A DNA stretch of 64,000 nt from Theristus sp. LFF4_11. Its lineage: Eukaryota; Nematoda; Chromadorea; Monhysterida; Xyalidae. Made by a program: the position numbers and the translations under genes. The stretch is taken from NCBI GenBank assembly GCA_030248135.1, contig JASANC010002461.1:124001-188000 (forward strand), written 5' to 3'. Positions 30,471-64,000 of this stretch are shown here, piece by piece; within the stretch, counting starts at the first letter, position 1; each line of letters begins with the position of its first letter. Under the pieces are notes generated by a model, which saw only the letters and a program-made list of their open reading frames with translations, was not told the origin of the DNA and did no database searches.

Positions 30471-30476
30471 AATAAA
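30471..30476 (+). terminator. Polyadenylation signal AATAAA of the receptor gene
   Basis: A canonical AATAAA lies 44 bases past the receptor stop codon at 30425-30427. Its position favours the long C-terminal tail over the alternative stop at 30134. Confidence 0.6.
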
Positions 30477-30830: not shown

Positions 30831-30905
30831 GCCCTCGGCGGGGCTCGATCCCCCGAACGCACAAACAATAGTCCAACGCGCTACCACTCAAGCCGTGAGG
30901 GTGAC
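30831..30905 (-). ncRNA. tRNA-like sequence (pseudo-tRNA or SINE head)
   Basis: On the minus strand GGCTTGAGTGGTAGCGC fits a tRNA D arm and A box, and CGGGGGATCGAGCCCCG forms a T arm with five pairs and a seven-base loop containing the B box. CCCTC near the 5' end can pair with GAGGG at the 3' end. The anticodon stem does not pair well (TTGGA against TTTGT), so this is probably a decayed tRNA or the tRNA-derived head of a SINE, not a working tRNA. Confidence 0.45.
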
Positions 30906-30991
30906 AAACGATTCGTTTACGTCATGGGCGATACTGTAGCTGGCATTTCATAGGCTACAGCTTTATTTCATTTCCTACCTTATCGCATCTA

Positions 30992-31259
30992 CAGCAGGGC
31001 CAATTAAACATGGTAGGTTATTTCAGGGTACTAGGAACGCGCGAAATTTGTGTGAAAGAAAAAAGACGTTCAGAATTGCATGTCAAAATTCGAATAATAG
31101 GTAACTGGTTATTCGTGTTACACATTCTGTCTTTTCTTTGTTCATTGCACACACTATTGGCAAATATCTTGGCATTTTAGAGAAAGGCAACTCCCAGTCT
31201 GCGACAACTCTCGCCTTGATTCAAAAGACAAGGACCGCCTTCTTCATTCGGCCATACTG
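30992..31259 (+). repeat. MITE family B, copy 1
   Basis: Inverted ends CAGCAGGGCCAATTAAACAT and ATTCGGCCATACTG, with TA on both outer sides. The interior (GGCAAATATCTTGGCATT, CAAGGACCGCCTT) matches the copies at 33783-34058 (inverted) and 40980-41251. The length is about 270 bp. Confidence 0.75.
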
Positions 31260-31665
31260 TACAGTCGGTAGGCGGTGTCGTGCAGCTGCGGGCGCTGCTG
31301 GTGTGCCCACGCTCAGCATTCACAATGAACATTGAAAAACACAGTAAAAACAGAAAACTAATAGTCTCCGCCATATTTGCTTTGTTTTATGCCGAAAAGC
31401 AATGAAGAAAATATGCAGCATCACCATACTTAATTTTCTTTCAAACCAGCATTTTGATGTGCCCATATCTGAACTAAAGCAACACAACCAAGCTTTTTAG
31501 AATTTGAAATATATGTTTTTGAAAAGTCTCTGATAAAAATCGAAGAATGAAAGAGTTCTGAAAAAAACTGTGTGAAAAATTTCGACTAACCGCCGGGTTT
31601 TAGGTGCATATGCAACCTCTAGGATTTTATAAATGAGTGAAGATTTGAAAAAAAGCGCAGCGATC

Positions 31666-34600
31666 ATGCGACTTGAGATTGCCTGTTTGATTCTGCTTGT
31701 TTGTTATGCAAGTAAGTGTGGTTTCCAAAAAATACTTGAATCCGAACAAATATTTCACACTGAATTTGCATTAAGGGCCGGGCTCGACGCAGGTAATCGA
31801 AGCGACCGTGCAATGGGAGAACTTTCCGATTGTGAGTTTCGGAGATAGATTTCCTCCTAATCACTCATTGTTTTCGTTGCTCGTTTCCAGTTTTGTGGGC
31901 GTTTTCGACCGTTGGTGACGGTATTTTTATTTTAAAACGATGGTAAACGTACTATCGCTCAAAAATAAAAAAAAGACTGTAGACAACTCAAACTCGCGCT
32001 GTGTCAATTCACAGCGAAAATGTACACCATAATTCTTCTCAACTCTCATTGAAAATAAGTCACGACGAAAACGTAAAAGATTCACTAAACGAGAACAGTA
32101 TTTCATTGCGATAGGCGCCGAACCAAGCGAAACAGTACTACGTCTATGTGAAGAGTCCAGCAGCGGAGCGGTTTCAGTTTTTTTCCACTGCCGAAGCGCA
32201 CGAAGAATGGGTGAACGTGAGACTGCCGTACACTGGCAATGGTCGATTGAGTGATTGATTTCATTGTTTCTCATGATTTACCGAATCTGTGTAATTTTCT
32301 GTTTTTTAACTGTTTTTATGCTGGTCTTTGTTCGCATTCAAAACAACTTTTCCAATTTCAGGACTGTACAAATTCAAAGTGTGTCGAGCGCTGATAGCGA
32401 GCGCAGTTGACATCGCGCAACAGCACGACTGCTATGACCTGCCACCGGAGGAAGTGTATTATGTTCCAGAGACCACCACATTGCCATTGCTCTCCAGCAC
32501 AATCGGCATTAAAATGGAAGGTGAGATGGACATGATAAAGAAGAAAGTGTTACGGAACGTACACACTGAGCAATGAGTATTGAGCATTTGGATTCGTTGA
32601 CAGCCATGCTCAGTTGGTTGCTTTCAAAAACAACCCACTCCATTGTAAGTAATTTCGATTTGGACGCACAATCTGATTTGCTCATTGCAGGACCTGTGTT
32701 GAATCAGGTGGTGAACGTTGACTGGGCACCGTTTGAACAGGTGCGGCATTTGTCTTGTGTGATCCACTGTTTCGCTGATGTTTCAGCCAGACATTACATC
32801 CGTCTGCGCTGGTCATTTTTGATGATTTTTGATTGGGCTGTGCAGCCCGGACCTTGTCGTACTGACGAGCCTAAAGCCCGCGATATACGCTTACCCGGCT
32901 AAACCGCAAGAAACAGACGCTGTAAATTTGAATATTACTTTCTTGTTAAGCGTTTCTAACGTGTAAGTGTGCATTTGCACGCACAGATGGGGAACATGGA
33001 GCGTGTTTCGCGGTTGCGCGCGCCGCAGCAAAACTAAGCGTATCTGACGGCAGTTTTGTGTTTGAAAACAACAACAAAACTAATTTGAATTTTGTTTCAC
33101 AATAAAATTTAAATTCCGGCCATACGTTCGGGCGTAAAACAGCGTGTGCGGCTTTTAGCTGTGCGGTTTTTCCACAGTTCAACAATTCAACAATTCTTCG
33201 TCCAAGATGAAAGATAATCTTTCACAATAATAACTCAGTTTTCATGCGTTCTTTGTGATTTCTTATTGCCTGCAAGCACCGCGGTGTATGTTTGCAGAAC
33301 AAACCGAATGACATGGTGGTGATAAAAAAAGAGGACACCGAAGGGCGATACCATCGAATTGGCGTCGGCACAAACGTTGATGAAACAGGTCTACCGAATG
33401 AGATTGCGCTGATACGACACCGCAACAACAGTTAGTCGTCGGGGGCACGTGCATTGTATGCAGCTTTGTTTTCCCAGACAAGTGTGCGCACTGCGGATAC
33501 ATGTCCGCAAGATTTCGAACAATTGTTCTTTTTTCATCCTCATAATCCTATTCCAGTCCCACTCCTGTCTTATTCTTATTCCAATATTATTTTTGTCGAA
33601 TTGCACGGAGCATAACGGCTCACCGGAAACCGTTTTTATTTTGCATTTGTACAGCACTGCCGAAACACGAATTCGACGGACCCAGCCGCCGTTCATTGCA
33701 GGTCTGTGTTGTACTTTTCGCTGACTGGCCTATCAGAGTGTTTCGCGCAGTGCTGTACAAATGCAAAAAACATTTTCAGGTACAGTATGGCCGAATAAAT
33801 AAGGCAGTCCTTGTATTCTCCATCAAGGCAGGATCAGTCGAAAACTAGGAGTTGTTTTTAACAAGAATGCCAAGATAATTCCCAATCGTGTGGGCAAAGG
33901 CGAAAGAATGAACAGAATCGCATGAAGAATCAGATAGCTTGAAAAGACACGTCAAATCTCACACACAATTGGGTTTCTGATCGTCTTTTTCCTTTCATTC
34001 AAATTTCGCGCGCTCCTTGCACCCTGAAAAAAGCTGCCATGTTTACTCGGCCATTCCGTAAGCCAGTGTGCTCACTACTACAGCAAAATCGATAAAGACA
34101 GGATCGGAATATGAATAGTATGGGAATACACAGGATTGGGACAGGATTAGGACTGGAACAGGCTTGAGGTTGCATATTTGTATTGTTCTCTCCTTTGCAG
34201 CCGAGTACCGATACAAGGTGTGCTTGGCGGACGGCACCAAATCACCGTTTGATCCGGATGAATACAAGCCGGAGATTTGTCAGATGAAAATCTGGACCGT
34301 TCATTTCGAACCGTGTTAGTTAGTACAGAGAAAAACCACCCCCTCATGTCATTCAGTAAACTTTGCAAAATATTCCGTTCCAACTCTTTCCAGTACCTGA
34401 AAATTAAGCGGCATTCATGAAGTATATTATTTAGTGACAAATAGCTGCGTGAAAACATACATAGCTCGCGGTCACTAAATACTGCTTCATGAATGCCCGG
34501 TTACAGCTGGTGAAGCGGTTCTGACGTCACGCAACTACGGCGACACCAGCATCATCACGCCACGCATCAGCGTTCGCGACGCTCTGCAATACGCGCAACT

Positions 34601-37600
34601 GCTGGGTGTACGGCTGTCTCTAGGAGCATTCATGAACCAGTATTTAATGACCGCATACATGATAGTACACAGCTACGCGTCACCGAATACTGCTTCATGA
34701 ATGCCGCTTCTGTGTGCACTGTGTGGCTGCTTTTTTTGGTTCGCACAGCCCACCACTCATCGTGCGCGAATGCACTCTGAAACAATTCAGCGTTTTCCAT
34801 CGGCGTTTTTAACTTCTGCCAGATTGGCGTTTTCATTTGATCGGAAACCCAAAGAAACGCCAGGTGTAACGCGCGCCCGGTTTGCGGTCCTGGTTTCACA
34901 CAGATTTACCTGATGCAATTAATTTGGTCTGAAACTCATATACAATATGTGTATGGTATGCCTGTCTGAACTCCACCAATAAACGCCAAATAGGGTTTAT
35001 AGCCACAATTTTTGTGTCTATTGTCTTTTTTAGACCGATGGACGTGCTGTGTCAAGCGATGTTTACCACAAAAAGCCGAAGACGCCGACTTATCAGCTGG
35101 TCGCAACACAACCAAGCAATGAAGACAACTATTATTTCACGACGCGAGACGTTGGTACGCGAAACACAAAAAATATGGTTGTGAATTAACAAAATTTCAA
35201 TCGATTTCATGTGCGCATTTGTTATGTGTATTAAAAGGAACGCACCACCTGCGTTTTTGTCCGCGACTTGACATGGAAAAAAAGTACAAACGATGCGCCG
35301 AAGTGGAAGTGGACGTGGCAAGGGTGAACGGTCGGTGTGTGGTGTGCTGTCCTGTTCAATTGTTTACGAACAAAAGTTACGTACAACAACAAAAATGCAT
35401 GATTGCGATGTGAATTCTTGCAGGCGAAATGACTGCGCACGTGCGCTACTTGCCATCAAACATTGTTGCAATCGACTTGCAATGGAATCTATTTGAGCAG
35501 GTGTGGTGGCGTCCTTGAAAATTGCCATGATTACGCATTGAGAACACAGTATTCCGGATTATCCGGAATCATAGCTCGCGCAATTTAAGGATGAGTTACG
35601 GGAAGTGCTAATCAGAGGGAAATTGCCATCGGGCAGCGACTACAACGAAGTGAAACGGGTGCCGATCGCGTCTCAGCACACCACTGTGCACATGCCATAC
35701 GAGCCCGGTGAATTCAATGAAACAGAAAACAATCATACAATCTTGACATAACCTTTTTTATTACGCTCATATCGTCTCTCGCAACAAGTCGACAATAACT
35801 TCATTGTCAGGCCCGTACGATTTCAAAATCTGTTCGGTCGTAAAAGACACGACGCAAGAAGTCGAGTGCGCTGACACGCACCGACTGCCGGTGGGCGCTG
35901 CGAAAGGTTACACGTTTGAATTCATTCGCCTTTTACGAAAACATTCGTCATAAAAAGCAAGGGTGTTTTTTTGAACACCCAAGCATTTTTATTGGGTACT
36001 TTAGAATCGAACGATTTGGACGTGCTACTTACTTGGCCACCGCAACCAGTGCGTTCAGTTGAAAATGAAAAGTTTTTGTGTTCAAAAGTCAAAACCCAAA
36101 TTAAGATCATACATACAATGTATTAGCGGTGTGTTTACGTGTTACCAGAACAGTGACCACTACCAAATCACGGTGCAAACACCGGACTCACCAGCAAAGT
36201 CGATGTTCGTCAAGAATGTCGACGGTGACGTCACCGAGACCCGAGTGAACACGAAGAACGTTGCAGATGGTAAACGGGCTTGTCGGAGAGCCGGGCATAT
36301 TCTTCTGGCATTCGGGTTTATTCGCCTATGCACTGTACAGACACACAGCCACAAACAAGCACACAGCAAACCACTCGCAACCAGTGGTGCATGCCAGTGT
36401 GTTGGTTTTTGAACAGCGCACCACACAGTATCGCCGAAATCAAGTGTATGAATCACAACGAGTGGACGGTCTTCAGAAACAAACATATTAGCGTGCAACA
36501 TGAGCAGCACCAATTCATCGTTCAAACATTGAGCGCTGGTTTTTCGAACGAGTCAAGGGGATGCAGTCAGTCACGAAGCAGTAATTTAGTGACCGCGTAG
36601 CTATGTTTTAACACACATAGGCGTCACTAAATACTGCTTCATGAATGCCGCCTCACTATTTTTTGCACGACAGGTGAATACAAATATGAGGTATGCAGCA
36701 TCCAGAATGGCTACAAACAACGGGACATTCACATGGCTCGCTGTGTTCAGCGGTCGGTGCACGTTGCCAACGGTCGCCCCAGTGAAGGTTGCATCTTATC
36801 TGTTCACATTTCACAAAAGATAGAAACTCAGCAATATAATATCGACATGCCGATGCCAGATGCACAAACCCGTGCACTTGTCGCTTCAGATTCACTCAAA
36901 CTTGCAGAAGCAAAAAAAAACAGCTGCGTCTGCTTTTGTTTCAGAAGGAAAAATATGTTGTTTATGAACAAAAAGTTTTTTAGTGCACCGGGTGCATCGA
37001 ACACGTGCATCAATTGTGCATTATGTTTTTGCGTTGCTGATTTTGAAAAAACATGTAGGTATTATTGTCAAAAGTTCAAACTGATGCAAAATTCAAGCGC
37101 TAGTTTATGATATTCCGAAAACAGCGTCTCAGCAGCCCCGTTGAGCTACCCGTTCTCAGTTCAGCAGAACTGCTGACTAATTCTGTTTCTGTGTTGCAAC
37201 AACAATTGTATTTTTCGCATTTTTCATGTGTGTTTCTTCAGTGACACAAACCGTGGCTGACAGTGAAAAGGTGCAGGTGGTTACAACCGACGATAACAAA
37301 CCCATGATCACACCCGAGGTCAACTGGCCGCCATTAGCTTGGGTAAAGCTTTGCGTTTTTTACATTAATTTACAGCTAAAACACCATTTTTGCGGAAGAA
37401 CCGTATCAATCATTCATTCAAAGTCCCCAAACCCACACGAGTACACTGAAATTGCCGTGATGAAACCGGGCGACAGCAAATATACCGTGGTGGACAACGC
37501 AGCTAACAATGACCGCTCAAAGGTGGTGCCAACGGAGTATGTCGGAGATGGTACGCTCAAACAGCAAAAGATACCTGAAACGAAGCTTTCAAATATCCAG

Positions 37601-40600
37601 AGATCAAGCAGAGATCCATGTAACCACATTACCCCATGCGACATACAGTATTGTCGAACTGAAAATCACAGAAAATCAGCTGAAGCTGCATTTGAGTCTG
37701 ATTATTGGTCCAACTAACACGACGGAACCAATCAGCATCTCATAAGCCTAAGCCTAAGCCGGAGTCTCCTAAGATTGAGTCTAATCATAGCCTAAAGCGC
37801 CATTCATGGAGGTTGACGCGCGCTTACATGAACGTGCATATGAATGAGCGTGTGTTCCAAAACTGAAGCACGCTGACGCGCGCTAAAGCTGCTCTGTTTT
37901 TTGGTTCATGAATGTGTAGCGAAGTGATGCGCGCTGACGTGCTTCAACCTCCATGAATGGCGCTTAATCCTAAGCCTGAACCTAAGCCTAAGCCCAAGCC
38001 CAAGCCCAGGCTGAGGCCTAAGACTAAGCCCAAACCTAAGCCTAATCCTACGCCTACGCCGACGCCTAAACCTAATCCTAAACTTTAGCCTTAGCCTGAG
38101 CCTAAGACTAAGCCTAAACCAACGACTAAGCTTGCGTCAGCCAAAACCCGAGTCCAGATCCAAACGCCAGAACGTTTCACTGTTTCACATTCCAGCTTTT
38201 TTCTTCAGGCATTTACAACTACAGAATCTGCAAGAAAACACGAAACACACACTTGCAGTTGCGCTGCGCATTTGCGAATGAGTTTCTCGAAGCTGTTCCA
38301 GGTATAACTGAAAGCAACGCAAACAAGAAAGAAATAAAAAATCAAAGATAATTAAGGAAAGCTGCTAAAGGTACATACACACGTGCATTGTACACAATGC
38401 ATCATGCAATTACAGACGAGCACACCATCCTGGTGAATATGGTGACAACCGATGTTGACTACGCTTGGATGCATCAAACGAATGTCGGTATTCTGTTGTG
38501 CAGTCGCTGTTTTAACCTATTGACAAACATACCAACAAAACAAACGCGATCAATAATAATTCGCAGAGCATTATTTCAGTTGCTTGGCGAAAACAATCAG
38601 TTCACGCTGACGTGCTATCCGCCGGGCGAAGAAGCCATAGAGTCTTTAATTACGTTAGATGGAGATGATGCGTCCGTGCTGCCGGTTTCCACACGGTACA
38701 CACAACAGGGTTGGTCAAAGTGTTGATAGTGTGTTTTGCATGAAACATCGTTCACTGATGCTGCTGTCGGTGCAGATTAGGGGTGTTTAAAAACAAAAAT
38801 CGTGATTTTGTTTTTTTACAAACTTCTTTTAAAAAATCAAAAAGTGGCAAAACCAAAGTTGTACCAATTCATTCAGGGAGTTATAAGAACCACATTTAAT
38901 GTGCAAAACGCCTCCCGAATGACTCCCATATTCCAGATTGTGTTTTGGGTTTCATTTAGATTTTGACTTCATTTACCCATTTCCAAACCGATATCGTGCC
39001 TCTTATTGCGTTTTGACTCTCAAAACGCCACTAATTATTCCCAAGCTCAACTAAAAAAATTACCGGCTTGAAATTTGATCCATTATGATGACGACGTTAC
39101 GACACGACACGAAACAGCAACCAAACAAAGTAGCGCTATCAGACGGTACAGCTCCGACGCTCAGAATCCACAATGAGAAATGAAATGTCACCTTGGCTGC
39201 ATCGGAAGTGTTAAGCCAAGCTTTGCGATGCTCATTCAGATACATGTATCTTAAGATAAGCAGATGGCAGAATGTAGGTGCAAAGTTCAGTAGCAAAAAA
39301 CTGATCAACTAAGTGTGGTTTGACTGCACAACCGTTTTTCATCCACATTCGCTTTTTGTGCAGGGTTTCTGCATCTGCATCAATATCTGTAAGAGCATCC
39401 ACATCAGCATTTTTTCTGTGATCGTGATTCTACAGATTGAATGAGAACTACTTGCTGTTGTGGTGTCATGATCTACAAATTAACGCACATAAATTCCAGG
39501 CACCTACGCTAATAGCCTTTGTCTCACCGAGATCACAAACTTCTGCGCGAGTGGCAGAAAATTTGTGCCAGAACCCGAACATTGTGAGTGACACGAATGC
39601 ATGAACAAATGCAGGGAGCATTTTTTTCAAATTATGAAACAATTGTGCGCCGGACCTCGGCTGAGCTGATGAAGTGCGCACGGCACAACTGGTTATAAAA
39701 TGGTGTAATTTTGCTGTGATTAATTTCAGTCGTGGAACACAACACGCACGAATTCCAACTGCAGTGGAAGAATACTATTGAGACTGTGAGTGTTTCTTAT
39801 TCGGGTTCAGATGCAAAAAACAACTAAAAGATCTTTCAAATGAAAAACTGAAAAGCGATCCGAAAAAGAAATGGAATGTATAATGACAAACAAAGTAAAT
39901 TTTAAAAAACCCTTCGTGAAACAGCCGTCTGAAGAGTACGAGTGGCGTATCATGACTGCTCGCCCCGACGGTGACGGCTTTCAGTTCGTGACAACGACGC
40001 CGGCCGCTTGTGACTGTGTCGAGACGGTCACGCTGCGCAATGTGATCGAAGGTTCAACTGTGGTCGTTTGAAAACAGAAAAAAACACTGTTCATCATGAG
40101 ATGTATGTTTTGCGGTGCTATTACAATGAACCCCTGTTACGCTATTATAGGTGTGTATAGCTTCAAGGCGTGCTACACGTCGAAGGTAAATCCAATAATA
40201 AAGCCGGATCAGTGTGAGACCATCGAACAAGAAGTGATCCTACCGGCAAGCATTCGAACGGATCTGCAAACTAACGGTAGCGTTTTCATGAAATCTGTGT
40301 TTTTACAAACGGTATTGGGTTTATTGAGTTACCAGTCGTGGCCAGACTTTTGTCTGTGTGTTCGGAGCATCAGTGGGTGCTAGGCAAGCACTCAGTGACC
40401 GAAAAAAGAGATATCGACGCCCCACTTGACGGCGTTCTCTGCATGCAGCTTTCTGGGTTGGCCCGATTGAAACATCGCCGAAATTACTGTTCGATCGTTC
40501 AAGTCAACAACTTCAAGACTTTTTAAAACTTTTTAATTCAAACTTTTCTTAAGCTCCGCTTACATGGACCAATATGATGACGGTCACTACCCCGGTGGTT

Positions 40601-43291
40601 ACGATGCCGCCTCTTGGTTAGCGAGCGCAGTTTTTTACAACAATTAAATGTGGTCAGAATCAAGCTAATGTTTATGAACAAACTTCATTTCAATATTTTT
40701 TTTAGCAACAACGCCTGTTTACACGGTGTCAAATGAGGCTCCTCGAACGACAGAATTTGTAACACTAAAATTTGAAAGTTCGTCAACACGACGAATTTAT
40801 GTTGTGGAGTTTTATAATAACTCTGTTATCATGATTCGTGGCATAAAGTGCTGAGCATGCGACGTAATTTGTGGCATTATAGCTGATTGGTCAGTTTTGT
40901 GTGCATACATTTTGTCATTGGCGAGGCGCAGTCAACGCCAGTATAGAAAGCATAACACCCTGTCATCTTTTCTTTTGTACGGCTTGGCTGAGTAAGCATG
41001 GCAGCTTTTTTCAGAATGCAAAGAGGGCTCAAAATTTGAATAAAAGGACAAAGACGTTGAGAAACCGAATTGTTTGTCAAATTAGACGTGTTTTTACCAA
41101 TGGACTCTTCGTGTTGTTCTGTTTATTCTTTCTCACTTGCATACACGATTGAGAATTATCTTGACATTCCTGAAAAGGGCAATTCCTTGTCTACGATTGA
41201 CCCCGCCTTGATGGAGAATACAAGGACTGCCTTATTTATTCTGCCATACTGTATGTTTATGAGATTCAATGCGCACATAAATAGCAACGCAGTTTCGCGC
41301 TGTGCCCGATTCCCTAAGATCCAACTGAATCGCTGCATTAAGCAGGAAATTATGATTTCCTTTATAAGATACGTCTGCAAAGCGCATTGAGTCGCCGAAC
41401 CCCCAAAAAATAATACATATGTGCACCAACCAATCAGCTAATGCTACAAATTATTCAGGTCGGCGAGCTTTTCACGAACATGTAAAAAACCTTGAAGGAT
41501 GAATTCATTTACAGCCGACACAATGGCCACAGTGACACCCGGAGCCAGCACAACGGATTATCAAACATTTGGCCCTGTTTTTGGAGGTAATGTTCTGATT
41601 AAATTGACCTAATATTTTTAAAAACTTTACTTTCAACGCTTCAATAACCGAAAAACCCTTTTTTATGTGAAAAATATCGAAAAACAAACAAAAAATTGTT
41701 TTTAGAAACTCCAGGCAATAAAACAATCACTACTGTGTCAACTACAATAAGAACAACGCCAACAACCGCAACTACAACTGCACCAACAACTACGACAACC
41801 ACAACAACAACTACAACAACAACCACACCAACAACGACGACCACAACAACGACCACTACCACAACGACGACCACAACAACGACCACTACCACCACCACAA
41901 CCACCACAACAACAACGACCACCATCACAACTACTACAACCACAACAACCAAACCAACAACGACCACCACAACAACGACCACTACCACAACGACGACCAC
42001 AACAACGACCACTACCACCACCACAACCACACCAACAACTACGACAACCACAACAACAACTACAACAACAACCACATCAACAACGACGACTACAACAACG
42101 ACCACTACCACCACCACAACCACAACAACAACAACGACCACCACCACAACTACTACAACCACAACAACCACACCAACAACGACCACCACCACAACTACTA
42201 CAACCACAACAACCACACCAACAACGACCACCACCACAACTACTACAACCACAACAACCACACCAACAACGACCACCACCACAACTACTACAACCACAAC
42301 AACCACACCAACAACAACCACACCAACAACGACCACTACCACAACGACGACCACTACCACCACCACAACCACAACAACCACACCAACAACGACCACCACC
42401 ACAACTACTACAACCACAACAACCACACCAACAACGACCACCACCACAACTACTACAACCACAACAACCACACAAACAACGACCACTACCACAACGACGA
42501 CCACTACCACCACCACAACCACAACAACAACAACGACCACCACCACAACTACTACAACCACAACAACCACACCAACAACGACCACCACCACAACTACTAC
42601 AACCACAACAACCACACCAACAACGACCACCACCACAACTACTACAACCACAACAACCACACCAACAACGACCACTACCACCACCACAACCACAACAACA
42701 ACAACGACCACCACCACAACTACTACAACCACAACAACAACAACGACCACCACCACAACTACTACAACCACAACAACCACACCAACAACAACCACACCAA
42801 CAACGACCACTACTACAACGACGACCACTACCACACCCACAACCACAACAACAACAACAACGACCACCACCACAACTACTACAACCACAACAACCACACC
42901 AACTACGACCACCACCACAACTTCTACAACCACCACCACCACAACCACAACAACAACTACGACCACACCAACAACGACCACCACCACAACTACAACAACC
43001 ACACCAACAACGACCACCACAACAACGATCACTACCAGCACCACAAGCACAACAACAACAACAACTACGACCACAACAACAACGACGACCACCACAACTA
43101 CTACAACCACAACAACAACGACGACCACAACAACAACAGCAACCACTGCCACCACCACAACCACAACAACAACTACGACCACAACAACAACGACCACCAC
43201 CAGAACTACTAAAACCACAACAACAACTACAACAACAACCACACCAACAACTACGATCACAACAACGACCACTACCACCACCACCACCACC

Positions 43292-43328
<37 letters not shown>

Positions 43329-52300: not shown

Positions 52301-55300
52301 AAAACATCTGATACAACATATTCACTTTCCTCAAAAACAGCAATGGAGACAACAAGAACTACAGCTCATATTGAACCAACAGCGACACCAGGACTGGAAT
52401 CTACTTCTGTAAAAGGATCGACAAACACGGTAACGCCATTAGTCAGTATTGACACGCTAACAGCTTTAACAGGCCCAACAGAGCCACCGATCGACTGCCG
52501 ATATCAAGTAATGCAAGAAAATTATGTCCCAAACACACCGATTAAATTTCAAAAAGGAGTCGTCGCTAAGTGGTCGGCCAAGGCAGTTCTGGAAGTGGAA
52601 TTTCCAACGCCTCGTTACGTTGATCAGCTTATCGCTATTACAGACGGAGGAGTCAAGAATATCACTGTTCAAGTTGTATATGGAGACCAAACAATGTCAA
52701 CGCCAAACAAGTTCGTCGATAACTTGATTGTGAATGAAGACAATGTGAAGAAACTCATTATCAGTTTTGTGGATCAAGAATACGAAGCTGTCTACAAAAA
52801 GGTCACACACCTAGAAATCGTAGCATGCGGTAGACCGATTAACAAAGAAACTTCAACTTCTTCGCAACCGCTCTCGACACGTGAAGAACAAATGATAACA
52901 ACCCTTGAAACATCGCCAGCTGTAGTAACGTCACAATCGATTTTCTTGGAATCATCTTCAACATCATCAGCTCAACCGCCATCAGCTAGTACTAGTAGTA
53001 TAGTTAGTGTACCAGGAACAGAGCAAACAACACCACTGCCACAAGCCGGTACTGGTAGTACAGTCAGTGGACCAGCACCAGGACCAGGGCAAACAACACA
53101 ACAGCCACCAGCCGGTACTGGTAGTACAGTCAGTGGACCAGGACCAGGACCAGGGCAAACAACACAACCACCACCAACCGGTACTGGTAGTACAGTCAGT
53201 GGACCAGGACCAGGACCAGGGCAAACAACACAACCACCACCAGCCGGTACTGGTAGTACAGTCAGTGGACCAGGACCAGGACCAGGGCAAACAACACAAC
53301 AGCCACCAGCCGGTACTGGTAGTACAGTCAGTGGACCAGGACCAGGACCAGGGCAAACAACACAACAGCCACCAGCCGGTACTGGTAGTACAGTCAGTGG
53401 ACCAGGACCAGGACCAGGGCAAACAACACAACAGCCACCAGCCGGTACTGGTAGTACAGTCAGTGGACCAGGACCAGGACCAGGGCAAACAACACAACAG
53501 CCACCAGCCGGTACTGGTAGTACAGTCAGTGGACCAGGACCAGGACCAGGGCAAACAACACAACAGCCACCAGCCGGTACTGGTAGTACAGTCAGTGGAC
53601 CAGGACCAGGACCAGGGCAAACAACACAACAGCCACCAGCCGGTACTGGTAGTACAGTCAGTGGACCAGGACCAGGACCAGGGCAAACAACACAACAGCC
53701 ACCAGCCGGTACTGGTAGTACAGTCAGTGGACCAGGACCAGGACCAGGGCAAACAACACAACAGCCACCAGCCGGTACTGGTAATACAGTCAGTGAACCA
53801 GGACCAGGACCAGGGCAAACAACACAACAGCCACCAGCCGGTACTGGTAGTACAGTCAGTGGACCAGGACCAGGACCAGGGCAAACAACACAACAGCCAC
53901 CAGCCGGTACTGGTAGTACAGTCAGTGGACCAGGACCAGGACCAGGGCAAACAACACAACAGCCACCAGCCGGTACTGGTAGTACAGTCAGTGGACCAGG
54001 ACCAGCACCAGGGCAAACAACACAACAGCCACCAGCCGGTACTGGTAGTACAGTCAGTGGACCAGCACCAGGACCAGGGCAAACAACACAACCACCGCCA
54101 GCCGGTACTGGTAGTACAGTCAGTGGACCAGGACCAGGACCAGGACCAGGGCAAACAACACAACAGCCACCAGCCGGTACTGGTAGTACAGTCAGTGGAC
54201 CAGGACCAGGACCAGGGCAAACAACACAACAGCCACCAGCCGGTACTGGTAGTACAGTCAGTGGACCAGGACCAGGACCAGGGCAAACAACACAACAGCC
54301 ACCAGCCGGTACTGGTAGTACAGTCAGTGGACCAGCACCAGGACCAGGACCCGGGCAAACAACACAACCACCACCAGCCAGTACTGGTAGTACAGTCAGT
54401 GGACCAGGACCAGGACCAGAACCCGGGCAAACAACACAACCACCACCAGCCAGTACTGGTAGTACAGTCAGTGGACCAGGACCAGGACCAGGGCAAACAA
54501 CACAACAGCCACCAGCCGGTACTGGTAGTACAGTCAGTGGACCAGGACCAGGACCAGGGAAAACAACACAACAGCCACCAGCCGGTACTGGTAGTACAGT
54601 CAGTGGACCAGGACCAGGACCAGGGCAAACAACACAACAGCCACCAGCCGGTACTGGTAGTACAGTCAGTGGACCAGCACCAGGACCAGGGCAAACAACA
54701 CAACCACCGCCAGCCGGTACTGGTAGTACAGTCAGTGGACCAGGACCAGGACCAGGACCAGGGCAAACAACACAACCACCAACAGCCGGTACTGGTAGTA
54801 CAGTCAGTGGACCAGCACCAGGACCAGGGCAAACAACACAACCACCACCAGCCGGTACTGGTAGTACAGTCAGTGGACCAGCACCAGGACCTGGGCAAAC
54901 AACACAACCACCACCAGCCGGTACTGGTAGTACAGTCAGTGGATCAGGACCAGGACCAGGGCAAACAACACAACCACCACCAGGCGGTACTGGTAGTACA
55001 GTCAGTGGACCAGCACCAGGACCAGGGCAAACAACACAACCACCACCAGCCGGTACTGGTAGTACAGTCAGTGGACCAGGACCAGGACCAGGGCAAACAA
55101 CACAACCACCACCAGCCGGTACTGGTAGTACAGTCAGTGGACCAGCACCAGGACCAGGGCAAACAACACAACCACCACCAGCCGGTACTGTTAGTACAGT
55201 CAGTGGACCAGGACCAGGACCAGGGCAAACAACACAACCACCACCAGCCGGTACTGGTAGTACAGTCAGTGAACCAGGACCAGGACCAGGGCAAACAACA

Positions 55301-58300
55301 CAACCACCACCAGCCGGTACTGGTAGTACAGTCAGTGGACCAGGACCAGGACCAGGGCAAACAACACAACCACCACCAGCCGGTACTGGTAGTACAGTCA
55401 GTGGACCAGGACCAGGACCAGGGCAAACAACACAACCACCACCAGCCGGTACTGGTAGTACAGTCAGTGAACCAGGACCAGGACCAGGGCAAACAACACA
55501 ACCACCACCAGCCGGTACTGGTAGTACAGTCAGTGGACCAGGACCAGGACCAGGGCAAACAACACAACCACCACCAGCCGGTACTGGTAGTACAGTCAGT
55601 GGACCAGGACCAGGACCAGGGCAAACAACACAACCACCACCAGCCGGTACTGGTAGTACAGTCAGTGGACCAGGACCAGGACCAGGGCAAACAACACAAC
55701 CACCACCAGCCGGTACTGGTAGTACAGTCAGTGGACCAGCACCAGGACCAGGGCAAACAACACAACAGCCACCAGCCGGTACTGGTAGTACAGTCAGTGG
55801 ACCAGGACCAAGACCAGGACAAACAACACAACAGCCACCAGCCGGTACTGGTAGTACAGTCAGTGAACCAGGACCAGGACCAGGGCAAACAACACAACCA
55901 CCACCAGCCGGTACTGGTAGTACAGTCAGTGGACCAGGACCAGTACCAGGGCAAACAACACAACCACCACCAGCCGGTACTGGTAGTACAGTCAGTGAAC
56001 CAGGACCAGGACCAGGGCAAACAACACAACCACCACCAGCCGGTACTGGTAGTACAGTCAGTGGACCAGGACCAGGACCAGGGCAAACAACACAACCACC
56101 ACCAGCCGGTACTGGTAGTACAGTCAGTGGACCAGGACCAGGACCAGGGCAAACAACACAACCACCACCAGCCGGTACTGGTAGTACAGTCAGTGAACCA
56201 GGACCAGGACCAGGGCAAACAACACAACCACCACCAGCCGGTACTGGTAGTACAGTCAGTGGACCAGGACCAGGACCAGGGCAAACAACACAACCACCAC
56301 CAGCCGGTACTGGTAGTACAGTCAGTGGACCAGGACCAGGACCAGGGCAAACAACACAACCACTACCAGCCGGTACTGGTAGTACAGTCATTGGACCAGG
56401 ACCAGGACCAGGGCAAACAACACAACCACCACCAGCCGGTACTGGTAGTACAGTCAGTGGACCAGGACCAGGACCAGGGCAAACAACACAACAGCCACCA
56501 GCCGGTACTGGTAGTACAGTCAGTGGACCAGGACCAGGACCAGGGCAAACAACACAACAGCCACCAGCCGGTACTGGTAGTACAGTCAGTGGACCAGCAC
56601 CAGGACCAGGGCAAACAACACAACAGCCACCAGCCGGTACTGGTAGTACAGTCAGTGGACCAGGACCAAGACCAGGACCCGGGCAAACAACACAACAGCC
56701 ACCAGCCGGTACTGGTAGTACAGTCAGTGGACCAGGACCAGGACCAGTGCAAACAACACAACAGCCACCAGCCGGTACTGGTAGTACAGTCAGTGGACCA
56801 GGACCAGGACCAGGGCAAACAACACAACAGCCACCAGCCGGTACTGGTAGTACAGTCAGTGGACCAGGACCAGGACCAGGGCAAACAACACAACAGCCAC
56901 CAGCCGGTACTGGTAGTACAGTCAGTGGACCAGCACCAGGACCAGGGCAAACAACACAACAGCCACCAGCCGGTACTGGTAGTACAGTCAGTGGACCAGG
57001 ACCAGGACCAGGACCCGGGCAAACAACACAACAGCCACCAGCCGGTACTGGTAGTACAGTCAGTGGACCAGGACCAGGACCAGGGCAAACAACAGAACAG
57101 CCACCAGCCGGTACTGGTAGTACAGTCAGTGGACCAGGACCAGGACCAGGGCAAACAACACAACAGCCACCAGCCGGTACTGGTAGTACAGTCAGTGGAC
57201 CAGGACCCGGGCAAACAACACAACAGCCACCAGCCGGTACTGGTAGTACAGTCAGTGGACCAGGACCAGGACCAGGGCAAACAACACCACCACCACCAGC
57301 CGGTACTGGTAGTACAGTCAATGGACCAGCACCAGGACCAGGGCAAACAACACAACCACCACCAGCCGGTACTGGTAGTACAGTCAGTGGACCAGGACCA
57401 GGACCAGGGCAAACAACACAACAGCCACCAGCCGGTACTGGTAGTACAGTCAGTGGACCAGGACCAGGACCAGGGCAAACAACACAACAGCCACCAGCCG
57501 GTACTGGTAGTACAGTCAGTGGACCAGCACCAGGACCAGGGCAAACAACACAACAGCCACCAGCCGGTACTGGTAGTACAGTCAGTGGACCAGGACCAGG
57601 ACCAGGACCCGGGCAATCAACACAACAGCCACCAGCCGGTACTGGTAGTACAGTCAGTGGACCAGGACCAGGACCAGGGCAAACAACACAACAGCCACCA
57701 GCCGGTACTGGTAGTACAGTCAGTGGACCAGGACCAGGACCAGGGCAAACAACACAACAGCCACCAGCCGGTACTGGTAGTACAGTCAGTGGACCAGCAC
57801 CAGGACCAGGGCAAACAACACAACAGCCACCAGCCGGTACTGGTAGTACAGTCAGTGGACCAGGACCCGGGCAAACAACACAACAGCCACCAGCCGGTAC
57901 TGGTAGTACAGTCAGTGGACCAGGACCCGGGCAAACAACACAACCACCACCAGCCGGTACTGGTAGTACAGTCAGTGGACCAGGACCAGGACCAGGGCAA
58001 ACAACACAACAGCCACCAGCCGGTACTGGTAGTACAGTCAGTGGACCAGGACCAGGATCAGGGCAAACAACACAACCACCACCAGCCGGTACTGGTAGTA
58101 CAGTCAGTGGACCAGCACCAGGACCAGGGCAAACAACACAACCACCACCAGCCGGTACTGGTAGTACAGTCAGTGGACCAGCACCAGGACCAGGGCAAAC
58201 AACACAACAGCCACCAGCCGGTACTGGTAGTACAGTCAGTGGACCAGGACCCGGGCAAACAACACAACAGCCACCAGCCGGTACTGGTAGTACAGTCAGT

Positions 58301-61300
58301 GGACCAGGACCCGGGCAAACAACACAACCACCACCAGCCGGTACTGGTAGTACAGTCAGTGGACCAGGACCAGGACCAGGGCAAACAACACAACAGCCAC
58401 CAGCCGGTACTGGTAGTACAGTCAGTGGACCAGGACCAGGACCAGGGCAAACAACACAACAGCCACCAGCCGGCACTGGTAGTACAGTCAGTGGACCAGG
58501 ACCCGGGCAAACAACACAACCACCACCAGCCGGCACTGGTAGTACAGTCAGTGGACCAGGACCCGGGCAAACAACACAACCACCACCAGCCGGCACTGGT
58601 AGTACAGTCAGTGGACCAGCACCAGGACCAGTGCAAACAACACAACAGCCACCAGCCGGCACTGGTAGTACAGTCAGTGGACCAGCACCAGGACCAGGGC
58701 AAACAACACAACAGCCACCAGCCGGTACTGGTAGTACAGTCAGTGGACCAGGACCAGGACCAGGGCAAACAACACAACAGCCACCAGCCGGCACTGGTAG
58801 TACAGTCAGTGGACCAGGACCCGGGCAAACAACACAACCACCACCAGCCGGTACTGGTAGTACAGTCAGTGGACCAGCACCAGGACCAGGGCAAACAACA
58901 CAACAGCCACCAGCCGGTACTGGTAGTACAGTCAGTGGACCAGGACCAGGACCAGGGCAAACAACACAACAGCCACCAGCCGGCACTGGTAGTACAGTCA
59001 GTGGACCAGCACCAGGACCAGGGCAAACAACACAACCACCACCAGCCGGCACTGGTAGTACAGTCAGTGGACCAGCACCAGGACCAGGGCAAACAACACA
59101 ACCACCACCAGCCGGTACTGGTAGTACAGTCAGTGGATCTGGACCGGAGTTAACAACACAGCTACCACCAGCCGGTACAGTACCCACGACCACACAGACC
59201 GTCGCTTTTACCAGTACAACTTCTCGATCTCCTTGCTATTTTTTTACTATTGATGCGCAAACATTCGCAAACGGGGAACCATATTATTTCGAAAACAACA
59301 TTGTGGCGATTAACAATGGAGAAGAAGTTCAAGTTGAACTAAAGTTTCCAGAACCAACAAAAGTTGAAGAGCTTTCAGTGGAGACAGAATCAATTGGGAC
59401 ACCAGTTGAAGTGTATTTCGAAAAATCAGACGGTTCGAGATCAAATCGACTTAACCTTGCAAGCACGGAAGGTGAATTCGTTAAATCTTTGCACACATCA
59501 GAAGACAATGTTGTGGCCGCCGTATTCGAGTTCACTGATGACACAATGGATGCTGAAACTGTACTTTACGAAATCAGGCAACTAAAAGTTAAAGCATGTT
59601 TTGACTATCTGCACACAACAACGACAACGACATCCTGGCCAGGCACTGTCACAGCACCTGGTAATGGACCAGGCACTGCCGTGCCAACAGTTACTGTACC
59701 AAATGAAACAGTACGTCCTCCGGTAGCAGACTGCGAAACGTATGAAATCCGGCCACGCGAATTTCTTGCCACTGATGAAGCTTCAACCATCAATAGTGGC
59801 AGCGCCAGAATTATCAATGGAAACCAAGTTTTGCTATCTTTTTCAAAACCAACCGATTTACAAGAAGTGACGGCAGATGTCGTTGATGATCCGATGGTGG
59901 TCCTAGTAAAATTCAATCGAAACGACTTGACCGCCTCTGATCAGAAGCGTTTGACACCAGCAGAACCAAGTGATCACACACGGACATTGCAAACGGACGA
60001 AAAAATGATTGACTCTATACTGTTCACATTTATAGATGAGAAAAATGGCGTCAACCGCGAACGAATACAAGAAAAAATAACCGATCTGCGTGTTGTGTCG
60101 TGCTACGAGCGGATAGTTTCGGAAGACACTCGGACACCATCGAAACCGGCCGAAACAACCACTTCATCAAAAACATTATCACCTGAATCTGTGACGTCGA
60201 CACAATCCCAGTTGACCCCTGAATCAAAAGAGTGCGATTACTACGTTATCGATCGTCGCGAATTTATTGGCGTCGGACAGTTTCCATACCGCAAAGGTAG
60301 CACAGTTCGCGTTGAGCCCGACAGTGTTGTGACACTCGAGTTTCCACTGGCAACTATTGTCGAACAAATCAGCGTCAAGTCCACCCAATCCAATGACGCA
60401 GTTTCGTATCAATTCAAGCGACTCGATGGAAGTCTGTCGGAAAAGCTTGCAGCGACGACGACCACAATGGAAAATCCGATCTCGGTGGCCGTTTTTGAAT
60501 ATCAAGTGAAACGCATCGAGTTTGAGCCGGTCGACGATGGCATTGACGAAATCGAGGTGAAGGCGTGCAACGCATGGGAAATGCCAGATCAAGCTACGAC
60601 GACATTGCCTTTTGTTACACCAACTCTCCCTGAGACGTCATTGGAAACAGTTCCATATCCTGTGTGTCATGATTATGTGATTGCTTTGACCGACTACATG
60701 TCGCATGGAGCTTTCCCGCTCATCAAGGGCTCTACTGTCAATCTGTTCAAGAATGGTGTGCTAACGCTTGAATTTCCACGAGCCACAATTGTGGAAGAGA
60801 TCGCAGCCGATTCGACATTGCCGGAAAATAAAATTTACATTCAGTTTGAACGCTTCGACGGAAGCAAGTCGGCTGAGATTCTGGCCACCACGTCCGACGA
60901 ACAGGCGCCCACGGTTGCTGCGTCGATTGACGGTGAATTTCAAGTGAAACAAATATTGTTCGACTCAGTGGACGACGGAATTGACGAAATTCGAGTGAAA
61001 GCATGCAATGCCTACGAAACAGTCACGACAAGAACTGTCGCACAAACCACTGCAGCTCTTGGTTCCACAGCTCCGACCACCACAACCACTGTATTTCCAG
61101 CCGTTTGTCGTTACGATCTAGTTCCGCAGGAATTATTCCCACTGGGCACAGTCAGGTACGGTGGCACAACTGTTTCGGCTGCCGACGAATCTTTGATTAC
61201 GATTGACTTTGCTGAACCGGTGCTGCTACAGAACGTCACTGTATGGGCGAATCAGATCATGATTCATTTCGAACTCGTCATGGAATCCGGTCAAGTTATG

Positions 61301-63630
61301 AATTTCGCAACATTCGACTGCTATGAGAAACCATTCCACACGTTGCCGTTGTCATGGATGACTCGGCGCGTCAAGCAAGTGACTTTCACGTTTGAAGCCG
61401 GCAAGACCATTCCTGAAGTCGTCGAGGCTGTGTCGAAGGTGACTGTTGACACGTGCCTCAGTACAAGCAGCACGACTGTTGTTGCCTCGACGTCAACAAC
61501 CGCAACAACGGGCGCCTGCGCCGACTATGAAGTTGTCCCTGAGCAATTGTCACGCAACAGCAATCGTACGCTCGCCAACGGTGTCGTCGCACACTACACT
61601 GCGAACAGTGAGATCGCTTTACAATTCCCGGAGCCCGCTCTTGTGCTGGAGATTGCTTCGCAGACGCGACAGGCCGGCTTTCCCATTCAGGCGCAGTTGT
61701 TCAGCGTCGCCGGCGGGCTGACTTACCACGATCTGACGAGCCAACAGCAACTGAGACATCAGATCAGCGTGAACCAGGCGAATATAACGCTGGTGACGTT
61801 CAGGTTCGTCGAGCACTCCGGCAACATTCACGATGACATCGAAGGAAACGTCGTCTTCTTGAAGCTGGTCGTATGCTTTGGAACGATGCCAACCACTGAG
61901 TCGCCCATCATTCCAACAATCCCGACGACCTCGAAAGAAACCAGCTCAACGGGCAGGACAACACTGACGCCGGGAGCAATCAGGACCACCCCGAATTTAC
62001 CACCTGGAAAAACGGAAGAACCTGTCAAAAAAATGAGAACGTCGAGAGTCCCACAGAAATCTACGACACAGTCGCCAGAAGACGTCAGAACAGTTCAGAA
62101 CACGTTGACCAGCGTGATCGTAACAACGCCGGCCGGCAGAAGAGCAGATTGCGACAGTACGATTGAGCTCGTCTCATTGTCCAGCGCGTCGCCGACGTTC
62201 TCGGCGTCCGACGGATATGGCGCCTCATTCACCGCTGATTCCAACGTTCTCATTCAATTCTCGACGCCCAAAAACGTCACGAGCGCGCGAGCGTTCCTCA
62301 ACACTGACCAAGTGGCTGCCGCCATTCAAGTGATCTTCATCGGCAGCACCGACGGTCGCCGTTCCACCGGTTATCCAGTCGATGATCGTGCGAGCGACGG
62401 CTACTCGTACGCGTTCTTCGGCGGCATTCCGGCCGCTGCGCTTGAGTTCCGACTGAATCAACCGGACATTGAGGCGGCGATGCTCGCGGTGCCGTTTGTC
62501 GGTTTCAACGGCTGCGACATTGGCGACACGAGCACGTCGATGACAGCGACAACGGCGGCGTCGCCAGTGGACGACTGCACGTACGCCGTGCGCGTGTCGG
62601 ACGTGCTCGAGCGCGGCGAACTCCTGTACGGCGGCGACCTGAAGGTGTACCTGGCGACCAGCGGTAAACTCTGGCTGCAATTCTGGTTTCCGCGGACACT
62701 GTTGCACGTCGACGTCGACGGGCGACCGAGCGGCGCGCTGAACGTTGAGCTGCAACGCGCGAACGGCACTCGAGCCGCGTATCGATTGAGGGCGAACGAG
62801 GGCCGCCGATTTGCGGTGAACGCGGAGCGCTTCGATGATGAACGCCAGATATCGGCCGTCGGTTTGTGGCCGGTTGGACAACTGCTCTTCACCGGGTTGG
62901 TCCACGGATGTTCAGCAAAGCGCAACATAATCTCTTGTGCTGCGTTTGCAATATGGAGTCTGTTTTTAATGTGCAGCTTTCTAAACCTTGACCATAAGCA
63001 TCTTCCAAATCTTGAGTCATAAGTAAGGCGATAACTTTTTAAGCAAACCCTTTTAATTGTTATAAGATGAACATATCGCGTGTCGAGTGCAATTGTCATG
63101 TAGCGGAAAAGGCATCGGCGCAAGTTGCTGTAGTTTCCATGATTTTGTATGATGCACATACACCAAGCACACTGAAAGTCGCAGACATTGCACACACTTG
63201 CCACTCGCATCACCAGTCATCGCGACACGGTGAGCACACATCGGTTTTCTTCAAATCATCCGGTTTTCAGCAGCAACAACACCGCTGCCAACATCGAGCG
63301 CCGTCTCGACTGGTTGAACGCCATCTCGAGTGTGACTGTGGTCGCGTGCTACCCGGAGGCGCTGATCACCACGCCCGGAGCAACGTTGATTCCCGGTCAA
63401 CGCACAACGGCAGCAGTGGCGACGACGTCTGCGCCAGGCGATCAACAGATCTGCACGTGCATTCAGCGCTCGAACGCACGTGTGCAACAGCGACACTCGT
63501 CGGACAGGTGCGCTGCTGTTTGTTTGTTTGTTTGTTTGTTTGTTTGTTTGTTTGTTTGTTTGTTTGTTTGTTTGTTTGTTTGTTTGTTTGTTTGTTTGTT
63601 TGTTTGTTTGTAATTTTCAGCCAGAAATAA
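31666..63630 (+). CDS. Giant secreted mucin-like modular protein (about 62-63 exons)
   Basis: No family recognised. Exon 1 (31666-31711) encodes a signal peptide, MRLEIACLILLVCYA. Exons then run 31776-31831, about 32117-32241, 32362-32520, 32691-32740, 33298-33430, 34201-34314, 34507-34607, 35034-35154, 35238-35330, 35424-35500, 35590-35707, 35811-35906, 36005-36048, 36149-36269, 36674-36787, 37242-37342, 37376-37550, 38209-38301 and onward, with compatible phases. The modelled protein has about 6500 residues: some 18 modules of about 95 residues, a poly-Thr segment between modules 8 and 9, then a single 11.5-kb exon (51368-62895) with Cys-bounded domains and a 66-bp tandem repeat, then 63271-63507 and a short last exon ending in TAA. 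Inference: heavily O-glycosylated extracellular or surface protein. The weakest join is 40837-41515, where the frame could also stop at 40854 and split the locus into two genes. The 3' end is also uncertain. Confidence 0.68.
33783..34058 (-). repeat. MITE family B, copy 2 (inverted)
   Basis: Ends CAGTATGGCCGAATAAATAA and CATGTTTACTCGGCCATTCC are inverted repeats with TA outside. It is the reverse-oriented relative of the copies at 30992 and 40980, and lies in the intron before the TEYRYKVC exon. Confidence 0.75.
34408..34502. repeat. MITE family D, copy 1
   Basis: A 95-bp foldback: GCGGCATTCATGAAGTATAT faces ACTGCTTCATGAATGCCCGG, and TTTAGTGAC faces GTCACTAAAT. Other copies are at 34623 and 36563. 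Its right end stops four bases before the start of the coding exon at 34507, inside the splice acceptor TTACAG. Confidence 0.8.
34623..34708. repeat. MITE family D, copy 2
   Basis: GGAGCATTCATGAACCAGTA faces ATACTGCTTCATGAATGCCG. It lies only about 120 bp from copy 1, on the other side of the coding exon 34507-34607. Confidence 0.75.
36563..36653. repeat. MITE family D, copy 3
   Basis: CACGAAGCAGTAATTTAGTG faces CACTAAATACTGCTTCATG, the right end then matching ATGCCGCCTC-type ends of the other copies. It stops about 20 bp before the exon at 36674. Confidence 0.75.
37743..38130. repeat. Degenerate interstitial telomere-like tract, (GCCTAA)n
   Basis: A run of CCTAAGCCTAAG-type hexamers with point changes (CCTAAACC, CCCAAGCC, CCTACGCC), the complement of TTAGGC, the common nematode telomere repeat. 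A 170-bp inverted-repeat element interrupts it (37796-37965). It lies inside the intron 37551-38208 of the giant gene. Confidence 0.75.
37796..37965. repeat. Inverted-repeat element inside the telomere-like tract
   Basis: AGCGCCATTCATGGAGGTTGA at the left is the complement of TCAACCTCCATGAATGGCGCT at the right, over 21 bp. Inside, GACGCGCGCT and GCGCGCTGACG also repeat. I saw no other copy here, although its CATTCATG core resembles family D ends. Confidence 0.75.
40980..41251 (+). repeat. MITE family B, copy 3
   Basis: Left end CGGCTTGGCTGAGTAAGCAT, right end TTATTCTGCCATACTG, with TA outside. The interior (GAGAATTATCTTGACATTCC, CAAGGACTGCCTTATTTATT) matches the copies at 30992 and 33783. 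Confidence 0.75.
41706..43556 (+). other. Poly-threonine exon of the giant gene
   Basis: A single exon of 1851 bp bounded by TTTTTAG and GTGAGT. It opens with TPGNKTITTVSTTIRTTPTT, after which nearly all codons are ACN (Thr) with sparse Pro, Ser, Lys, Ile and Arg. The middle shows a 45-bp higher-order unit coding Pro plus 14 Thr, repeated many times. Synonymous ACA/ACC/ACG/ACT use varies but the protein stays Thr, so selection at protein level is likely. Role by inference: dense O-glycosylation, as in mucin domains. Flanking exon phases (1 in, 1 out) match the module array, so it sits between modules without breaking frame. Confidence 0.8.
46013..46168 (+). repeat. 78-bp direct tandem duplication across a splice donor
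   Basis: The stretch starting TTTGCCCAGCAATGGTAAGT is present twice, head to tail, at 46013 and 46091. Each copy contains the end of the exon finishing at 46026 and its GTAAGT donor, so two identical donors lie 78 bp apart. Using the second would put the intervening bases into the coding frame. Confidence 0.88.
46420..46638. repeat. MITE family C, copy 3
   Basis: Ends ATTCAAACCTGTCCCGACTA with AAATGACGTCAT, and CATGACGTCATTTCAGTGGA with ACAGGTTTAAA. The interior is inverted relative to the copy at 27528. It lies in the intron 46027-46717 of the giant gene. Confidence 0.8.
51121..51313. repeat. MITE family E, copy 2
   Basis: GGCCCGTTCATACTGACGCA faces CATACGTCAGCATGAACAGG. The interior segment CAGGTCTTGTGTTTTAGCAT matches, in complement, the element at 13980-14170. 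It lies in the intron before the giant exon and ends about 55 bp before it. Confidence 0.75.
51775..52838 (+). repeat. Recent 573-bp duplication of a Cys-bounded domain
   Basis: The domain and its preceding linker occur twice, offset by about 573 bp. In the domain proper the two DNA copies differ at only a few positions, for example GAATTTC against AAATTTC and CAGATCTTG against CAGTTCTGG. The linkers are more diverged. This indicates a recent tandem duplication or gene conversion, in contrast to the eight diverged copies downstream of the VNTR. Confidence 0.85.
53035..59180 (+). repeat. 66-bp coding minisatellite (22-residue unit)
   Basis: A tandem array of a 22-residue unit, read roughly as TTQQPPAGTGSTVSG followed by PGPGPGQ. 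By length it holds about 93 units (6.1 kb over 66 bp, not counted one by one). Variants alternate QQPP with QPPP and GPGPG with GPAPG, SEPGPG or GPGPGPGPG, so unit length steps by 6 bp and never breaks frame. Some variants come in blocks, such as the long run of QPPP units at about 54700-56450, as expected from unequal exchange. The Thr, Ser and Pro content implies an O-glycosylated, extended stalk. Confidence 0.93.
63518..63611. repeat. (TTTG)n microsatellite
   Basis: About 23 nearly perfect TTTG units lie between the donor at 63507 and the acceptor TTTTCAG at 63620. The T/G-rich run is in the position of the intron's polypyrimidine tract. It produces long spurious frames in several phases. 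Confidence 0.93.
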
Positions 63631-64000
63631 TCGCTGGCACAATACTTGTTGCAGCAAGGCATGTTCTAAATCTGCGCAGCGGATATCTTATGAATGATGA
63701 AATAAGATCTAAATCTAAATCTTGAAACCCGCTGGCGGTTTTAGAACTGCTCCAAGCATGTGACTCGCTGTGCGAGCCGGTCGCCGTTCACTTCTGCTGT
63801 GTGTTCTTTCATTTCGTAAATTTCATGTTTCAGCTGATAATACACTGACGGACAACTGCATTCATGAAAACATTCGGACTCTTTCAAAGATTGGACACTT
63901 CATTATTGTCTAGATATTACTATGACCGTGATTCTTTGAAAACTAACATGTTGTGTGAGCCTTCCCTCGAGTTTAAATTTTTTCCGTTCAAGTTTTTTTC
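63631..64000. other. Downstream of the giant gene's modelled stop
   Basis: No gene is recognisable. A TTTCAG acceptor-like site at about 63833 is followed at once by stop codons in two frames. The window ends before any clear next gene. Confidence 0.5.

Follow-up and report, generated by a model that had tools for sequence, protein, structure and literature searches.

Among described nematode mucins, the TES-120 proteins of Toxocara canis (MUC-1 to MUC-5) are Ser/Thr-rich with flanking Cys modules, and they are reported to form the fuzzy surface coat of this worm, to be 176-316 residues long and to carry ShKT domains (PMC3611597). In Caenorhabditis elegans, DPY-6, LET-653, PLG-1 and OSM-8 are mucins of apical matrices. 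A review gives LET-653 as a ZP protein, assigns DPY-6 to a cysteine-cradle family and states that it is unknown which mucins make up the C. elegans surface coat (PMC11304992). A Meloidogyne mucin-like gene of only 1,125 bp, much smaller than the gene considered here, is reported to be tied to the surface coat (PMC6638177). This gene lies in a 64,000-nt window of the nematode Theristus sp. LFF4_11 (GenBank assembly GCA_030248135.1, contig JASANC010002461.1, positions 124,001 to 188,000), the window being the whole stretch of DNA analysed; all positions below refer to it, and all exons and domains given lie on its + strand.

Between 31666 and 63630 we assembled an exon chain, the product of which is probably a very large, modular, mucin-like, extracellular protein. 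Its order would be a signal peptide, eight fibronectin type III (FN3)-like modules, a 617-residue poly-Thr brush and seven more FN3-like modules, then a Cys-rich segment, two galactose-binding-like domains and a Pro/Thr/Ser-rich repeat brush of ~2,050 residues, and last eight galactose-binding-like domains with mostly Thr-rich linkers. At ~6,400 residues it would far exceed the TES-120 proteins, which it resembles in being a nematode mucin. With transmembrane mucins of the MUC1/MUC4 type it shares a predicted signal peptide and a central Pro/Thr/Ser-rich (PTS) region with a variable number of tandem repeats, but a membrane anchor is disfavoured here. Some sea-anemone MUC4-like proteins are reported to bear an FN3 domain (PMC9080433). 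Neither ShKT nor ZP, SEA, NIDO, AMOP or VWD domains were found in the gene pieces scanned with Pfam, which left aside the poly-Thr exon, exons 41515, 45223, 47561 and 63271 and some module ends; the scan returned only sub-threshold, unrelated rows.

Domain families and amino-acid repeats

The first repeated unit is encoded by an exon triplet with intron phases 0, 1, 1, a series recurring eight times in the first half of the gene model, and follows the pattern V-x-L-x-W ... Y-x-I ... P ... G-x-G-x-Y-x-F-x-V-C ... C. Eight such Cys-pair modules precede the poly-Thr exon: N1 (31776-32520; exons 31776-31831, 32115-32241 and 32362-32520), N2 (32691-34314; 32691-32740, 33298-33430 and 34201-34314), N3 (34507-35330; 34507-34607, 35034-35154 and 35238-35330), N4 (35424-35906; 35424-35500, 35590-35707 and 35811-35906), N5 (36005-36787; 36005-36048, 36149-36269 and 36674-36787), N6 (37242-38301; 37242-37342, 37424-37550 and 38209-38301), N7 (38416-39583; 38416-38483, 38580-38709 and 39500-39583) and N8 (39730-40276; 39730-39785, 39925-40051 and 40151-40276). 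Seven follow it, namely C1 (44167-44605), C2 (44683-45121), C3 (45341-46026), C4 (46718-47486), C5 (47702-48149), C6 (48218-48664) and C7 (48754-49381), and two of these, C2 and C4, are succeeded by a small extra exon (45223-45264 and 47561-47620).

Cross-profile comparison supports these assignments. With a profile built from the N-half modules, five of the six C-half modules outscored every one of 1,800 shuffled decoys, the weaker C2 being reached by one decoy, and the C-half profile placed all eight N-half modules above all 2,400 decoys. By this test, which is less circular than the splice-site and phase argument considered below, one module family flanks the poly-Thr exon on either side. 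The 14-row alignment excludes C7, which was scored apart; it is a weak member, at 12.0 bits with 1 of its own 300 decoys as good. The exon groups after C7 score 0.4, 4.7 and 0.3 bits, equalled by 27, 4 and 58 of 300 decoys, respectively, and were therefore left uncounted; the sequence-only reading, correct in that such modules are present, gave too high a count in proposing about 18 rather than 15. When all open stretches of at least 25 amino acids in the window plus 50 kb of flank were scanned in six frames, the module appeared at 32115-48780 of the + strand; the sole other row at E <= 0.5 was at chance level, near 4.3 kb (E 0.4).

That reading had recognised neither domain, yet both can be placed. 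In the 14-module alignment the first Cys is found in 14/14, Trp and the F-strand Tyr in 12/14 each and the C-strand Tyr in 7/14, and this core Trp/Tyr pattern is typical of fibronectin type III. A profile search of the PDB returned four contactin chains at the top (E 0.0037, 0.0074, 0.13 and 0.15), with the alignment spanning the B-to-F part of the domain and the Trp, Tyr and Y-x-F-x-V positions lining up; the aligned contactin parts are presumably FN3 domains. The 12 rows at E <= 10 comprise five contactins, one KIAA1496, five Rho GDI and one VirB9, and contactin-5, at E 0.0037 for the whole sequence, reaches but 1.3 for its best single domain, single-domain values being poor throughout (1.3 and above), and 0.61 against an artificial module consensus. 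Weighing against the FN3 assignment, neither any of the 14 modules nor the artificial consensus passed the Pfam fn3 cut-off, and, in contrast to the contactin modules, a Cys stands right behind Y-x-F-x-V with a second Cys downstream. The module can thus be placed as fibronectin-III-like only weakly, and we call it FN3-like, not FN3.

The second, Cys-bounded domain occurs in ten copies of 111-124 residues, exactly as proposed from the sequence: D1 (51923-52255), D2 (52496-52828), a near-copy of D1 with 13 base and 9 residue differences, D3 (59234-59599), D4 (59732-60103), D5 (60233-60568), D6 (60665-61006), D7 (61106-61456), D8 (61517-61876), D9 (62150-62515; weak, 12.6 bits leave-one-out) and D10 (62576-62911 as read through; 10.6 bits leave-one-out). 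Cys is the first and the last residue in 10/10 copies, with D10 as read through, and may form a disulfide. According to the predicted structures of D3 (mean predicted local distance difference test score, pLDDT, 84.2; predicted template modelling score, pTM, 0.79) and D5 (74.2 and 0.68), the domain is a jelly roll of the galactose-binding-like superfamily. F5/8 type C domains carry Cys at both ends, and the predicted fold and the terminal Cys pair are what the D copies share with the F5/8 type C (discoidin) and CBM32 domains; they differ from these in their length, in that only Cys, Phe and Cys are invariant across the ten copies, and in that none (0/10) passed the Pfam F5_F8_type_C cut-off. 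Searched by profile against the PDB, the D domains returned just two rows, both at chance level, and profile comparison showed no relation between the D domains and the FN3-like modules.

Two low-complexity stretches noted earlier are both borne out. The poly-Thr exon (41706-43556) encodes 617 amino acids, 91% of them Thr, with 562 of 616 codons specifying Thr (ACA 247, ACC 173, ACT 81, ACG 61). Of the 616 codons, 38 depart from the commonest base at the first position, 21 at the second and 331 at the third. Such third-position drift is the pattern that selection for Thr would leave, and a free-running DNA repeat should vary at all three positions. The 66-bp minisatellite (53011-59145) comprises 93.0 copies encoding QTTQ(Q/P)PPAGTGSTVSGPGPGPG, its motif keeping one frame across the array inside a single 3,905-codon frame; a 30-base motif of the unit has 30 occurrences in the genome, all of them within this array. 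The minus strand is also open across both repeats (2,087 and 651 codons), and openness of a repeat alone is therefore weak evidence for coding. Mucin PTS regions are described as combining a Ser+Thr content above 40% with roughly 5% Pro (PMC9080433). The poly-Thr part of the protein has this mucin-like composition, though in residues 792-1315 only; the poly-Thr exon overall has 92.1% Ser+Thr and 4.1% Pro, and the minisatellite, with 27.7% Ser+Thr and 24.3% Pro, does not attain it.

Extent of the gene and its C-terminal end

Exon choice was guided by a small home-trained splice and codon model, followed by curation by hand; those exons and starts from our home-made gene finder that were empty or implausible did not enter the models. 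Model A has 58 exons and 6,379 residues with no internal stop, joined phases and GT-AG ends in 57/57 introns; model B, in which the last exon is replaced by 51368-62865, 63271-63507 and 63621-63630, runs to 6,409 residues in 60 exons. Besides the modules, the chain contains an exon leading into the poly-Thr exon (41515-41586), a linker exon with no recognised domain (43924-44085), six exons without domain assignment (49428-49564, 49662-49767, 50049-50152, 50268-50381, 50541-50637 and 50760-50896) and a giant exon (51368-62865 with the model B end, the open frame continuing to 63022) that holds the Cys-rich segment, D1-D2, the minisatellite and D3-D10.

Joined phases, the shared module family and the lack of a convincing second signal peptide in 40280-41500 all favour one gene, which we consider fairly probable; somewhat less firmly, we lean towards this gene encoding a ~6,400-residue secreted mucin-like glycoprotein. 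The proposal of one 32-kb gene thus stands insofar as the exon chain is phase-consistent and the two halves are probably one transcript, but because the exons were hand-chosen to join, the GT-AG ends and joined phases are partly circular and not independent proof. The predicted signal peptide, likewise retained from the sequence-only reading, is encoded by exon 1 (31666-31711; MRLEIACLILLVCYA, then GTAAGT) and was judged by hydropathy, at 2.9. An in-frame ATG at 31633, 33 bases upstream, would lengthen the product by 11 residues ahead of the hydrophobic core. Two observations weaken the case for the start at 31666: an unrelated ATG in 20000-31600 scores 3.01, above it, and both automatic gene-finder runs start at 30731 and skip exon 31666. 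That these runs skip exon 1 and bridge the gap between the two halves through other exons tempers our confidence in one gene.

A pair of neighbouring genes, or a short isoform, is a less probable alternative but carries appreciable weight. It supposes a secreted protein of ~875 residues, built of eight FN3-like modules and closed by a stop at 40852-40854, and a second gene that begins near 41515 and contains the poly-Thr exon. An optional exon outside both models (40706-40854) combines a good acceptor with an in-frame stop and could be the 3' end of such a product, an ATG within exon 41515 opens a frame, an AATAAA/ATTAAA motif is present at 41039, and the gap between the halves is the longest intron of the model. 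In addition, a dispersed repeat of ~270 bp, is found in three copies 69-81% alike (30990-31262, 33780-34060 and 40978-41253), of which the first and the last, equally oriented, precede 31666 and 41515, respectively; the remaining copy is intronic and inverted, however, and for that reason the repeat is no promoter mark. Exon 40706-40854 scores poorly on both domain profiles. Among the six best starts in 40280-41500, examined with limited donor types, none makes a convincing signal-peptide exon from which a second gene could begin: the two listed starts with a scanned donor fall inside the dispersed repeat, and the start at 40288 (hydropathy 1.91) is without any scanned donor type. Moreover, phases join across the 40276-41515 gap, and both automatic runs bridge it, albeit with start and stop penalties set by us and with exons outside models A and B.

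At the 3' end of the single gene, we prefer the model B end at 63630, in line with the endpoint first proposed, over the read-through end. The segment 62866-63022, a hydrophobic read-through tail with a stop, is probably an intron: its GC content is 0.452, against 0.645 in 62500-62865 and 0.62 in 63271-63507, and its mean codon log-odds is -0.265, against 0.142 for D10 and 0.167 for the 63271 exon. Because some of the gene's introns reach 0.242 (median -0.054), codon log-odds alone are not decisive. Splicing to 63271 or 63274 lifts D10 from 10.6 to 17.4 or 18.3 bits, the top two scores among 89 candidates, and of 200 shuffled downstream sequences tried with four donors, 6 and 4, respectively, equalled those scores. 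In model B, exon 63271-63507 completes D10 with its second half and adds a Thr/Pro linker, and the last coding exon (63621-63630) reads SQK-stop. Several points count against this end: the donor TTT|GTGGCC is weak, no AATAAA or ATTAAA occurs within 62901-64000, and exon 63271 alone scores 1.1 bits on the D profile, equalled by 6 of 300 decoys, so that the spliced reading rests on composition and the joined score. The last intron of model B holds a perfect TGTT microsatellite of 23.8 copies (63517-63611).

The less favoured alternative places the true end at the stop at 63022 and makes the hydrophobic tail a membrane anchor. In that case the frame would run through D10 into hydrophobic residues 6349-6367, giving a membrane-anchored protein resembling a transmembrane mucin. 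The tail has the highest Kyte-Doolittle mean in model A (2.23 over 19 residues), the frame is open, and the secreted end requires the weak donor. Nevertheless, the D10 splice scores, GC and codon log-odds disfavour it, and both automatic runs splice the tail out as well, though by way of donor 62862 and an extra exon (63044-63146), and we regard an anchored product as rather unlikely.

Among 69 examined 22-residue units of the minisatellite, 4 of the distinct variants are silent and 17 change the residue, out of 58 and 140 possible, respectively, and neither these nor the D1/D2 pair show an excess of silent change. A decayed or misassembled array, that is, an old, partly non-functional gene or a minisatellite expanded or collapsed in assembly, is favoured by this and by the degenerate modules (the exons after C7, and D9), but seems improbable given the absence of stops in 58 or 60 hand-chosen exons, the single frame of the minisatellite motif and the concentration of poly-Thr drift at third positions.

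Relatives, proposed role and genomic surroundings

Look-ups in a collection of 5.8 billion proteins, which needed shared words and lengths 0.55-1.75 of the query, returned no match at E <= 0.01 for the D3-D10 region or the 827-residue N block, and none at E <= 0.1 for D3-D10 inside the 3,906-letter frame; owing to the word and length limits, diverged or differently predicted orthologues would escape them. Against its own genome (159 Mb in 3,744 contigs), D3-D10 matched only itself, missing D1-D2 of the same gene, and the N block gave 23 matches, all its own exons, missing the C-half modules. As the gene's own diverged repeats went unreturned, these searches are weak evidence for uniqueness. 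Titles and abstract beginnings of the open-access literature held, among the matches listed, no nematode protein with this architecture. The earlier description of the architecture as apparently undescribed therefore agrees with the protein, Pfam and own-genome searches made, and we regard the find as a new and extreme arrangement of folds already known, in a molecule of a familiar kind.

Both Thr/Pro-rich stretches would be heavily O-glycosylated and form stiff, hydrated brushes, with the FN3-like arrays serving as spacer and adhesive rods that anchor them. The galactose-binding-like fold is common among glycan binders, and the D domains may hold glycans or partner proteins and so cross-link the molecule into a coat. 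The setting is most likely an apical extracellular matrix, for instance the surface coat of the cuticle, the lining of the gut or a comparable mucous layer. Of the earlier suggestion of a very large secreted or surface-coat glycoprotein, the very large, mucin-like and probably extracellular character is retained, while gut, egg, seminal or other matrices are candidate sites for the protein besides the body surface. A bolder idea, which we hold to be a long shot, is a self-assembling glycocalyx, in which the ten lectin-fold domains bind O-glycans on the brushes of their own or neighbouring copies and a single lineage-specific gene would build the nematode surface coat, its thickness set by minisatellite length. 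The locus offers a concrete candidate mucin to test, with lectin-fold domains, a near-pure poly-Thr brush and a coding minisatellite. If it is one gene, it would also illustrate how a giant extracellular protein can grow, one half through duplication of exon triplets, the other through expansion of domains and a minisatellite inside a single 11-kb exon.

Several smaller features accompany the gene. The exact motif (TTAGGC)4, the usual telomere repeat of nematodes being TTAGGC, has 8,669 matches genome-wide with overlaps counted, vs 0 for the reversed control, in line with a nematode host. The canonical SL1 leader has no exact match across the genome, at odds with the best-known nematodes. A degenerate telomere-like TAAGCC array (37965-38117) lies inside an intron, and foldback-type short inverted repeats in introns (34406-34710 and 36568-36654) are related to each other and to a copy near 10.2 kb. 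At 46012-46170, a perfect 78-bp tandem duplication doubles an exon end together with its splice donor. Ahead of the giant gene and in its orientation, three Pfam families passed their cut-offs at 7278-20015 (Thioredoxin_12, Thioredoxin_13 and Glyco_transf_24), with Thioredoxin_14 below cut-off; we take these exons to be a likely UDP-glucose:glycoprotein glucosyltransferase. Downstream of the giant gene lie two short minisatellites with 42-bp and 18-bp units (positions 2725-2861 and 9432-9480 of sequence L009, not of the window).
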